A stretch of 64,000 nt of DNA. Origin: Yersinia vastinensis (GTDB lineage: Bacteria; Pseudomonadota; Gammaproteobacteria; Enterobacterales; Enterobacteriaceae). The notes beneath the pieces were generated by a model. That model was not told the origin of the DNA. It saw only the letters and a list, made by a program, of their open reading frames with translations, and ran no database searches. The stretch spans positions 124,001 to 188,000 of the forward strand of contig NZ_CACVAF010000008.1 of the NCBI RefSeq assembly GCF_902726565.1. The letters are read 5' to 3'. Positions within the stretch are counted from its first letter, which is position 1. The number at the start of each line of letters is the position of its first letter. This document shows positions 60,024-63,246 of the stretch, one piece after another. A program made the translations under genes and the position numbers.

Positions 60024-60392
60024 TCACCCCTTAATAACGTGATAGCAATCTTCACGAACGTTACGGAAGCCTGCTGCAAACTTAGCTACTTCAGGCAAAC
60101 ATAATCCGCCTTCAATTACCGGCTTACGCTTGAACTCATATTCGAAGAGATACGAAGCGCGAATAATTTGCATCTTGTATGCCTTCACTCGACCAAATGC
60201 TGCTTTAGCAATCATCCGTAGCGGAGCAGGTGAGTAACCAGCGCGTCTAACCAGTGATACTGACTGAGCGTTAACCTGATACTTGCGACCGACTGACATA
60301 GGGTTAGCGCTGGCATATGCCTGTTGCTTCGCTTTACGCAGCGCATCACGACGGCTGCGGCAATTTTCTTTGATAGTGTGCGGCTTAATCAT
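60024..60392 (-). CDS. N: N-like transcription antiterminator
   Basis: 122 residues. An arginine-rich motif at residues 12-26 (CRSRRDALRKAKQQAYA) followed by SANPMSVGRKYQVN parallels lambda N (RRRERRAEKQAQWKAANP and following); the C-terminal block GGLCLPEVAKFAAGFRNVRE resembles the end of P22 N (gp24). First gene of the leftward operon, downstream of pL and of a boxB hairpin. By analogy it binds boxB in nascent RNA and lets RNA polymerase read through early terminators with Nus factors. Highly diverged family, so the call uses motif plus position. Confidence 0.8.
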   Translation of the reverse strand: MIKPHTIKENCRSRRDALRKAKQQAYASANPMSVGRKYQVNAQSVSLVRRAGYSPAPLRMIAKAAFGRVKAYKMQIIRASYLFEYEFKRKPVIEGGLCLPEVAKFAAGFRNVREDCYHVIKG

Positions 60393-60588: not shown

Positions 60589-60637
60589 GTTTTAACTTCC
60601 TGTCGTGCTTTTGGCGTCCTGCCGTTTCGATGGAATG

Positions 60638-60666
60638 ATTATCACCATTAGTAATTCGATAGTCAA
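60638..60666 (-). promoter_or_regulatory. early leftward promoter pL
   Basis: TTGACT-N17-GATAAT on the - strand, embedded in operator-like repeats. The promoter mirrors pR on the other side of the immunity region with the same -10 and spacing. Confidence 0.85.
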
Positions 60667-60700
60667 CACTAATGGTGATAATAAATTACTAGTGGTGATT
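60640..60700. promoter_or_regulatory. left operator region (three CI/Cro sites)
   Basis: Three repeats with the half-site ATCACCA: TATCACCATTAGTAATTCGA at 60640, inverted TATCACCATTAGTGTTGAC at 60662-60680, and inverted AATCACCACTAGTAATTT at 60683-60700. They overlap pL, as in lambda OL. The middle site is identical in its core to the central site of the right operator. Confidence 0.8.
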
Positions 60701-60820
60701 TTGATTTTGATTTTTAAGGTAATTTAATTTAAAAATAATTCAGACGTGACCCTTCGCGCCGGCTATCAGGCGTGAAAAGTGTGCTAAATTGGGTGAAATT
60801 TATTCTTTGATGGGTGAGAT

Positions 60821-61027
60821 ATGGATAGCGAACAAGAGTTTTTCGAGCAGCAGCGGCCGGAAGTGGCGCAGGTTATCGGTACTGCTGTGATGCAGCTACT
60901 AATAGAGAGTGGGGAAGTGTCGAAGGATTCTATAGCAGAGATGATAGAGGTGCTGTATCAGGAGGAACAGGTAACTTTAGCCGTCGAGTTAGCTATTGAT
61001 ATTCTGAGATTACCGCCAGAAGGCTGA
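60821..61027 (+). CDS. 68-residue acidic protein in the immunity region
   Basis: Rightward gene between pL and the toxin-antitoxin cassette, starting MDSEQEFFEQQRPEVAQVIG after GGTGAG. Strongly acidic and helical (SIAEMIEVLYQEEQVTLAVE). It is transcribed in the opposite sense to cI and the cassette and is flanked by leftward terminators, so it could be expressed in the lysogen. No family recognised. Confidence 0.6.
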   Translation: MDSEQEFFEQQRPEVAQVIGTAVMQLLIESGEVSKDSIAEMIEVLYQEEQVTLAVELAIDILRLPPEG

Positions 61028-61154: not shown

Positions 61155-61181
61155 CAAAAAACCCGGCAGCGGGGCCGGGTT
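61155..61181 (-). terminator. terminator of the toxin-antitoxin cassette
   Basis: AACCCGGC ... GCCGGGTT, an 8-bp GC-rich stem with a 6-base loop, followed on the - strand by a T-run. It lies six bases beyond the SecB-like gene and closes the leftward three-gene cassette; a T-rich stretch on the other side may also make it work rightward. Confidence 0.82.
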
Positions 61182-61186
61182 AGGTA

Positions 61187-61594
61187 TTATTTTTTAGGCC
61201 TAGACCAAGGAAGTTCAATTGATTTTATTGAAGTATGTTTTAGAGTTGATTCAACAGTTAACTTCGTGGCTATTGATACGAAATTATCGAAGAACCAAGA
61301 ATTTTTAGAGCACTCATCCTCAGTCATGTCTCTATCTGATTCAAAGTCAAAATACAACCGAAGGGCTATTTTAACTTTGAATGCCAAATCGTCTTCATCT
61401 TCCCCGTCTTCACTGTAGCCATTTATTGAGGGCGCTGCTTCTATTATAATTTCCCTGTTACCATCATCATCTGCATCTTGCAGTAACTTATAATGGTCGA
61501 ATAAAACCCTAAACTTCCCACCCTCAGCATCTTTATACTCATTATATTCTGATGAGGTAACCTCGAAGCCTTTGAATATGATTTTATCAAGCAT
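61187..61594 (-). CDS. SecB-like protein, third gene of the HicAB cassette
   Basis: 135 residues. The segment DLAFKVKIALRLYFDFESD followed by FFDNFVSIATKLTVESTLKH and SIKSIELPW follows the SecB pattern (two beta strands, a long helix with an S-x-LT turn, and a terminal LP strand). The N-terminal half is beta-rich with an acidic loop (SEDGEDEDD). The ATG overlaps the hicB stop (TAATG). In known toxin-antitoxin-chaperone systems a SecB-like protein protects the antitoxin; that role is inferred from order and coupling. Another beta-sandwich family is possible. Confidence 0.6.
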   Translation of the reverse strand: MLDKIIFKGFEVTSSEYNEYKDAEGGKFRVLFDHYKLLQDADDDGNREIIIEAAPSINGYSEDGEDEDDLAFKVKIALRLYFDFESDRDMTEDECSKNSWFFDNFVSIATKLTVESTLKHTSIKSIELPWSRPKK

Positions 61595-62052
61595 TAGTGA
61601 TGCGTCCCTTTTTCTACTGTGCCAACCCATTTGGCTGATTCACTTGATCTTTTAACATAGCCAAATGCATCTCTAGACTCTTCAGAGCGTCGCTCAATAT
61701 GAAAATGAAATTCTTTCTTACCAACCAACTTCTCTTCTATTGAGTTTTTAACTATTTCATTCAGCGAAATACCCGCATCTTTAGCCGCTAGATATGCTTT
61801 TTTATGAAGATCTTCACCAATTCTTATATTAAAAGAACCACTCATTGGCTTTTCTGGGGTTTTTCCCACAATAGCGCAAGTTTCAATGTAATCATCCACA
61901 GCCTCCTCAAAAGCAGATTTCAACCCAGGCAAATCAGCAGCTTCATATGTTACTAAGTCATTGATACATTCAATCTTTCCATAAAGAACCATATCTTCAA
62001 TGGAAAATTCAATGCTACCATAGAATCCTTTATATTTCAGCATGTTACTCAT
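61594..62052 (-). CDS. hicB: HicB-family antitoxin with C-terminal extension
   Basis: 152 residues. Residues 4-55 form the partial RNase H-like HicB core (LKYKGFYGSIEFSIEDMVLY, GLKSAFEEAVDDYIE) and residues 70-110 the ribbon-helix-helix DNA-binding part (SGSFNIRIGEDLHKKAYLAA, GISLNEIVKNSIEEKL). Residues 111-152 are a tail not usual in HicB, rich in aromatic and basic residues (FHFHIERRSEESRDAFGYVK). Such a tail is where chaperone-addiction segments occur in chaperone-dependent antitoxins. Overlaps hicA by 8 bases and the next gene by one. Confidence 0.88.
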   Translation of the reverse strand: MSNMLKYKGFYGSIEFSIEDMVLYGKIECINDLVTYEAADLPGLKSAFEEAVDDYIETCAIVGKTPEKPMSGSFNIRIGEDLHKKAYLAAKDAGISLNEIVKNSIEEKLVGKKEFHFHIERRSEESRDAFGYVKRSSESAKWVGTVEKGTHH

Positions 62053-62293
62053 GAGCTTCTAACTCTTCTAGCAAAATTTTAACTTCTTTGAGGACATAGG
62101 CCTTCACAATGTTACCTGGATGTGGACAGTGAAGAGCCACTATGCGTTTATTTTCATTTATAAATTTTCTTTTTGAACCAGAGCCATTTAGTGTGCTGAA
62201 CCCATACTGTTTCATTAGGGTGACTAACTCATCCCACGTAAAGTCTTTAGGTAGAGAGAAAAGCCTATCCCTAAGTTTTTTGCTCCTACTCAT
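62045..62293 (-). CDS. hicA: HicA-family mRNA interferase toxin
   Basis: 82 residues with the dsRNA-binding-like HicA fold: DFTWDELVTLMKQYGFSTLN, GSGSKRKFINENKRIVALHC and PHPGNIVKAYVLKEVKILLE. It belongs to the HicA branch with an H-x2-HPG block (His55, His58) in place of the usual GSHH, so the catalytic His assignment is uncertain. First gene of the cassette; TATACT-like boxes upstream (around 62310-62320) could be its own promoter, normally autorepressed by HicB. Confidence 0.88.
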   Translation of the reverse strand: MSRSKKLRDRLFSLPKDFTWDELVTLMKQYGFSTLNGSGSKRKFINENKRIVALHCPHPGNIVKAYVLKEVKILLEELEAHE

Positions 62294-62456: not shown

Positions 62457-63170
62457 TTAGCTGAATGTCTCTTCGGGCCACTGAGCCTTAACTACCTTCC
62501 CGATGATCCGGCAGTTATCATTGCACTCAATGCTTTGGTAGCGAGGATTGGGGTTTAGAGGTTCCAGCCATGGCTTGCCATCCTCCCAAACGAATTTCTT
62601 GAATGTTACTTCGGTATCTCCATAGATACCGGCGACACAGAAGTCACCAGGGTCAACATCTTCTGCTGGGTCAACTAAGATCAACATACCTTCTGGAAAG
62701 CTCGGTTTGCTTCCTGGTGGTGCCGTCATGGAATGCCCAGAAACCTCCAGCCAAAATGAATCATTGCTCGCCTTTCTGGTCGTATCAACCCAGCATTTTG
62801 CGTCAGCCTCACGAAACGATCCTACCGCAGCGAATGCCCCCGCCTGAACTTCAGTAAGAAGCGGGTACGTATAACGCCTTACCTGATTTCCATTTTGGTC
62901 TACAGCCTCAAACATTCCGGCTATTTCTCTAGCTAACGAAGGGCTGAACTCATCAACTTTGATTCCTAGTGCCTTTGCAAATTGAGCTGCATGCGTCGCG
63001 TTTATAGCGTTAGAACCATTCAATAGTTGAGACACTCCGCTTTGGCCCATGCCCAACTGCTCGGCCAGCGTTTCCTGCGAAAGGCCGAGGTCATTTTTTT
63101 TAGCTTCAAAGATTAACTTTAATCTTTCAGCGTCAGCTAACTGCTCGTTTGTTAAAGGCTTCTTTTTCAT
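62457..63170 (-). CDS. cI: prophage repressor CI (lambda type)
   Basis: 237 residues, close to lambda CI throughout. N-terminal helix-turn-helix ([20 protein letters not shown]), linker with the Ala-Gly self-cleavage site (EVQAGAF), and S24 peptidase domain with catalytic Ser ([17 protein letters not shown]) and Lys (VTFKKFV). Maintains lysogeny by binding OL and OR and is inactivated through RecA during the SOS response. Ends QWPEETFS, like lambda. Confidence 0.97.
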
Positions 63171-63180
63171 AGGCTAAATT

Positions 63181-63244
63181 TATCACCAATAGGAATATCC
63201 ACCAATCACCATTAGTGTTGACAGTATCATTACTAACAGTGATA
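63181..63244. promoter_or_regulatory. right operator region (three CI/Cro sites)
   Basis: Three 20-bp sites spaced about 21-23 bases: TATCACCAATAGGAATATCC (63181), AATCACCATTAGTGTTGACA (63204) and TATCATTACTAACAGTGATA (63225), the last nearly palindromic. They cover pR and the start of cI transcription, as OR1-OR3 do in lambda. Confidence 0.85.
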
Positions 63245-63246
63245 AT
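63218..63246 (+). promoter_or_regulatory. early rightward promoter pR
   Basis: TTGACA-N17-GATAAT: consensus -35, near-consensus -10, ideal spacing, directly upstream of cro and overlapped by two operators. Confidence 0.92.

Follow-up and report, generated by a model that had tools for sequence, protein, structure and literature searches.

We describe a three-gene cassette, hicA-hicB-hicC, in a stretch of 64,000 nucleotides of Yersinia vastinensis DNA (contig NZ_CACVAF010000008.1, positions 124,001 to 188,000; the whole stretch is called the window below), and conclude that it is very probably a tripartite HicAB-type toxin-antitoxin-chaperone (TAC) module in a lambda-like prophage. The architecture of a TAC module is well supported; a dependence of the HicB antitoxin on the chaperone is likely and exclusion of other phages by the module is plausible. 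A first-pass annotation, made from the sequence, had already proposed a TAC module built on HicAB, and this proposal is now supported by a predicted SecB-type fold for the third protein, by the co-occurrence of a HicB tail and the third gene, and by the finding that antitoxins of another type are likewise followed by a member of this chaperone family, as would be expected from published TAC systems. HicAB-type TAC systems are known as a kind, and phage homologs are named HicA, HicB and HicC in GenBank; what we add is the fold evidence, the linkage of tail and chaperone, the prophage slot, and a HicA branch without the usual catalytic histidine.

Organization of the hicABC cassette

The cassette consists of the following features:

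62045..62293, minus strand: hicA, 82 residues, putative RNase toxin (PF07927, phrog_8887, alignment with 26 other HicA-family matches)
61594..62052, minus strand: hicB, 152 residues, antitoxin with a ribbon-helix-helix (RHH)-type domain (PF05534 at residues 55-102, phrog_9151)
61597..61722, minus strand: hicB codons 111-152, C-terminal tail, putative chaperone-addiction (ChAD) segment
61187..61594, minus strand: hicC-like third gene, 135 residues, predicted SecB-fold chaperone (phrog_19522, AlphaFold2 model)
61160..61181, minus strand: terminator-like hairpin closing the operon, at the position equivalent to Timm of phage mEp234

The open reading frames (ORFs) confirmed the three leftward, overlapping genes of the first-pass annotation, with an overlap of 8 bases between hicA and hicB (ATGAGTAA) and of one base, within TAATG, between hicB and the third gene. 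The first two products belong to the HicA family (PF07927, 38.6 bits against a cut-off of 27) and the HicB antitoxin family (PF05534, 65.7 bits against a cut-off of 21); with the overlapping frames, these Pfam matches and the predicted fold of the third protein, the cassette has the toxin, antitoxin and chaperone genes of a TAC operon. Single-sequence searches identified no PDB relatives of HicA or HicB, with one chance match at E 0.37. A longer, 147-residue form of the third gene starting at 61630 is present in the ORF listing, and we favor the ATG at 61594 because it forms the TAATG junction and because most of the aligned relatives start with ML.KI or similar at that place. The terminator that had been noted directly after the third gene corresponds to a hairpin with a T run at 61181-61160 (8 pairs, 6 of them G-C), 5 bases past the stop codon, and the Timm terminator is annotated at the equivalent site of mEp234, again after the third gene. 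The terminator scan alone is weak support, because it gave 4 terminator-like matches in the region and shuffled sequence would give 2.9; the promoter scan was uninformative (6 seen, 6.4 expected from shuffling) and speaks neither for nor against a candidate promoter of the cassette's own before hicA, at 62325-62298. The window contained no Rfam match at the gathering score and no tRNA.

Predicted fold of the third protein

A predicted fold unrelated to SecB had been named beforehand as a result that would refute the TAC proposal, and the AlphaFold2 model of the third protein (predicted local distance difference test (pLDDT) 76.7, predicted template modeling score (pTM) 0.70) is instead SecB-like. 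When this model was compared with known structures by Foldseek and VIA-align, SecB-type chaperones topped both lists, with 5mtw, in which a TAC chaperone is seen together with its ChAD peptide, first and SecB among the best. The C-terminal SecB-like helix followed by an LP motif that had been recognized in the sequence is seen in the model as a helix at residues 99-118 before LP at 128-129. The sequence itself gave no match in Pfam, NCBIfam, PADLOC or the PDB, and matched only phrog_19522, to which no function is assigned. The suggestion that the protein is SecB-like thus stands as to its predicted fold and fails as to membership of the SecB Pfam family (see below); the relation to SecB is visible in the modeled fold alone, since the sequence routes (Pfam, NCBIfam, PADLOC and PDB searches with the protein, searches with 32 relatives, and profile-profile comparison) all failed.

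The HicB tail and the third gene

Because the PF05534 match stops at residue 102, HicB residues 111-152 lie beyond the domain, which agrees with the 42-residue tail past the normal end described before and gives the antitoxin the C-terminal extension of a TAC system; the HicB model, at a pLDDT of 40, is too poor to compare folds, and its confidence is very low in the tail (24-27). Scans with a HicB-alignment profile identified 12 genomic loci and 44 loci on viral contigs, 56 in all, with 38 distinct HicB sequences. HicB had at least 148 residues in 50 of the 56 loci and a third-gene relative lay just downstream in all 50 (32/32 distinct HicB), the remaining six loci having a shorter HicB and no third gene (0/6; 0/6 distinct), a count that is partly circular because profile A7, which detects the third gene, was built largely from the counted loci. 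In a control set of 30 HicB-family loci from a class sample, the third gene was found, within the stretch examined, only at the window's own locus; 26 of the other 29 HicB proteins end at most 26 residues past the domain match, and the remaining three, likewise lacking the third gene, continue for 43-51 residues beyond a match that is only partial. H116 and H118 occur in every one (100%) of the 32 distinct tails, W142 and H152 are each kept in 94%, and the rest is looser. Tail distances also track HicC distances beyond those of the HicB core (partial r 0.52, 0/2000 permutations), a weak test because relatedness remains.

One of the six loci with a shorter HicB, L034 of Lelliottia sp. V86_10 (L034:2501-2896), has a hicB that stops within the tail at 131 residues, beside a transposase-like ORF recognized by eye; its hicA is open, and the following 2.4 kb hold no hicC remnant. 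This natural loss of tail and chaperone fits what is expected if a HicB that has lost its tail no longer depends on the chaperone.

A HicA branch without the usual histidine

Studied HicA toxins are described as having a conserved catalytic histidine (PMC11594946). When 27 HicA-family matches from a sample of 60 genomes, the window included, were aligned, the place of this histidine after GS was occupied as GSH in 18/27, as GTNH in 3/27, and as GSR or GSK together with HxPHP in 6/27, the window among them; where relatives carry the third gene, their HicA has R, K or G at this place. Judged from sequence, catalysis in the branch with GSK/GSR and HxPHP may rely on a different residue. Ahead of hicB, 34 of 36 listed loci have an open hicA-like frame, with none found for L035 and L040.

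The cassette lies in the immunity region

The earlier placement of the cassette behind cI in the lysogenic region was borne out by the neighboring features, which include cI, Cro, CII, an N-like protein and oL/oR repeats:

62457..63170, minus strand: cI repressor, directly upstream of the cassette (PF00717 (S24) and PF01381 (helix-turn-helix, HTH), phrog_4)
63180..63246, no strand: oR-like operators with a pR-like promoter (63218-63246, plus strand), from repeat and promoter scans
60637..60701, no strand: oL-like operators with a pL-like promoter (60666-60638, minus strand), from repeat and promoter scans
60024..60392, minus strand: N-like antitermination gene, downstream of pL (phrog_271, 2.7e-9; PF25694, 24.9 bits, under the cut-off of 27.9)

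The order is that of lambda, with cI upstream of hicA, then Cro and CII on the opposite strand, and the N-like protein downstream of the cassette. Positions 60662-60679 and 63205-63222 share an identical 18 bases (two overlapping exact 17-mers) in opposite orientation, as compared to 15/17 matched by the best 17-mer among 200 stretches drawn at random from the window. As these operator repeats flank the cassette, we place it between cI and oL, a layout also annotated in the mEp234 record; in lambda this position is held by rexAB. From this layout we infer that the cassette is co-transcribed with cI from pRM in the lysogen. PMC12894663 describes rexAB as lying just downstream of cI; the lambda genes occupy the same slot as the cassette, but their proteins are unrelated and act by a membrane channel mechanism.

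Ten HicAB-type loci were chosen for a repressor-like upstream ORF, and in nine of these it was cI-like at E ≤ 1e-10, the tenth (L064) matching phrog_4 at 2e-10. Nine other listed loci were scanned for their large upstream ORF, seven of them with the third gene and two, L034 and L035, lacking it, and at none was this ORF a cI-like repressor; these ORFs were UmuD-like, methyltransferase, anti-repressor, integrase and others, with two matchless, so the cI neighborhood is common and not universal. A 68-residue ORF of phrog_3946 (no function assigned) lies between the terminator and oL at 60821-61027, on the plus strand, opposite to the cassette.

A second gene pair with the same chaperone family

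The chaperone family was found at seven places in 6 of 392 genomes of the bacterial family, the window's own included; in a class sample (369 genomes) and an order sample (394) the only chaperone match was in the window's own genome, and a contig scan with a four-member chaperone alignment gave 105 stretches, none of which was confirmed. Two of the seven places are of the HicAB type (the window and L008). At the other five (L007, L009, L010, L011 and L012) the chaperone is preceded, in overlapping frames, by a protein of 134-135 residues and by an HTH protein whose C-terminal part is long, and phage mEp237 has the same HTH-type arrangement, with two small genes after the repressor. The HTH protein of L004 passes the PF01381 cut-off of 23 bits (28.2) and that of L012 just misses it (22.7). 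The first-gene protein of this type, at 134-135 residues, is a candidate TAC toxin (L004:3029-3436, L007:673-1080, L009:692-1099, L012:688-1092), and it had no match in Pfam (L004, L009, L012) or in PHROGs and NCBIfam (L004, L012). Likewise the 135-residue protein upstream of the mEp237 HTH antitoxin matched nothing in Pfam, PHROGs, NCBIfam or, by sequence, the PDB, so a HigB-type label would have to be inferred, any resemblance to RelE/HigB being by eye only. Since HicAB and HTH-type pairs both precede the same chaperone family, this family serves two putative pairs that are unrelated to each other, and SecB-like chaperones in general are described as serving different toxin-antitoxin pairs (PMC5105189).

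Comparison with known systems

The closest counterparts are in phages mEp234, HK106 and mEp506 (GenBank EF120460, EF120461, PV340539 and PV340542), which have the same three genes in the same order and in the same position from cI to the terminator and oL as the window, the 8-base and 1-base overlaps of EF120460 being identical to the window's. The sequences have diverged (HicA 59%, HicB 54% and HicC 41% identity between mEp234 and the window). PV340539 and PV340542 are annotated as HicA toxin, HicB antitoxin and "HicC chaperone", whereas the genes of EF120460 carry the labels hif-contiguous protein, for the first two, and hypothetical protein. Among 5426 complete E. coli genomes, 6 contain the mEp234 type, and there RefSeq lists the third gene as a hypothetical protein at each place; the mEp237 type had no near match in those 5426 genomes, and the window DNA had none in 20,395 E. 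coli records. No paper on phage HicABC genes was among the matches listed in the open-licence PMC literature; an apparent 'hicABC' paper (PMC8790059) was rejected, as the word is HicAB with a superscript C, and PMC4159516 names mEp234 without hicA or hicB.

Mtb-TAC (HigB1-HigA1-SecBTA, Rv1955-Rv1957) differs in having a HigBA pair, not HicAB, and its chaperone is 8-12% identical to the window's. Mtb-TAC is not known to be phage-borne. Mmet-TAC of Methylomonas methanica, a HicAB-type TAC described in 2016 as functional in E. coli, has a HicAB pair and a SecB-like chaperone as in the window, with antitoxin residues 119-159 as its ChAD (PMC5105189), but is located in a bacterial genome. The chaperone is the phage sensor in CmdTAC and, by report, in HigBAC: T4 capsid protein outcompetes the CmdTAC antitoxin for CmdC (PMC11618068), and for HigBAC the reported trigger is the lambda major tail protein (Mets 2024, as cited in PMC11980606). 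CmdTAC and HigBAC/MqsRAC of E. coli share the TAC logic and a SecB-like chaperone with the cassette, whereas their toxins and antitoxins differ from the window's. Gerdes 2024 (PMC10865869) gives 14 HicA contexts, and the words 'SecB' and 'chaperone' do not occur in the text searched.

Proposed mechanism and alternatives

In the lysogen hicABC would be transcribed together with cI. The HicB tail is likely a chaperone-addiction segment, such that HicB would fold and survive only while bound to HicC, probably a tetramer, and HicB kept in this way is likely to block HicA. Plausibly, an infecting phage would divert HicC, most likely through one of its proteins that is freshly synthesized in large amounts (as was shown in CmdTAC and is reported in HigBAC), and HicB would be degraded; free HicA could plausibly cleave RNA, so that growth would stop and the infection be aborted.

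Besides the partial circularity of the tail count, several observations weigh against a TAC module that excludes phages. The hidden Markov model search against SecB (PF02556), suggested earlier as a check, was negative for the third protein and 32 relatives (0/32 members of its family, profile A7, at E ≤ 1), which leaves the family outside that Pfam family, and hhalign of the third-protein profile against 25 SecB proteins gave a Prob of 0.2%. Prophage HicAB2 of P. putida, a two-component system without a chaperone, is reported in PMC12894663 to give no phage defense. The confidence of the third-protein model is moderate; L035, another of the six loci with a shorter HicB, keeps 142 residues that include an HxHFH stretch, has no third gene, and speaks against a strict rule of tail and chaperone; and the window HicA has neither GSH nor GTNH, carrying a lysine in place of the catalytic histidine.

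Toxin-antitoxin genes can stabilize mobile elements, and the position of the cassette is expected to be expressed in lysogens; the TAC module could thus keep the prophage, by arrest of cells that lose it, instead of excluding phages. Attempts to delete P. putida hicAB2 mostly gave prophage loss, although the same study assigns HicAB2 a role in neither prophage stability nor defense (PMC12894663). A SecB-like chaperone, as a sensor for foreign proteins, would be unneeded in simple addiction, and the E. coli TAC systems described in PMC11618068 and PMC11980606 act against phages; we regard prophage keeping as rather unlikely, if the most serious of the alternatives. It is improbable that the toxin is inactive and that HicB and HicC are kept for regulation, as an RHH repressor and its chaperone: the lysine of HicA would agree with this, but it is the form of a lineage and not decay of this copy, as R/K with HxPHP recurs in 6/27 aligned matches including the window and R, K or G in third-gene relatives, and hicA-like frames are still open at nearly all listed loci. 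Least probable of all is an ordinary two-component HicAB with an irrelevant tail and an independent SecB-fold protein as the third gene: HicAB pairs elsewhere do work without a chaperone, L034 (open hicA, tail-cut hicB, no hicC) indicates that the core pair can persist alone, and the partly tailed L035 also lacks hicC, but full tail and third gene co-occur, the frames overlap, tail and HicC distances correlate, and L034 fits the TAC rule equally well, the chaperone being unneeded once the tail is lost.

Building on the TAC reading, we tentatively propose, at somewhat less than even confidence, that lambdoid prophages use the stretch from cI to oL as a slot in which TAC modules can be exchanged. 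Here the phrog_19522 chaperone would be the phage sensor and the warheads would be either HicAB or the unmatched toxin with its HTH antitoxin, expressed with the repressor; lysogens would abort infections by rival phages if the chaperone is captured by structural proteins of the rival, proteins of the resident phage itself would not trigger the system, or only at induction, and the toxin would be of the HicA branch with another catalytic residue.

Implications

These results add the immunity region of lambda-like prophages to the places where TAC systems occur, with mEp234, HK106, mEp506 and mEp237 as sequenced phage relatives. None of the sequence families tested calls the third protein a chaperone; with the fold evidence, annotators could recognize the third gene. 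Because the same chaperone family is paired with two kinds of putative toxin-antitoxin pair, the role of the chaperone in setting which phages are sensed becomes directly testable, and we consider the prophage slot with its interchangeable warheads and the HicA branch to be most worth following.
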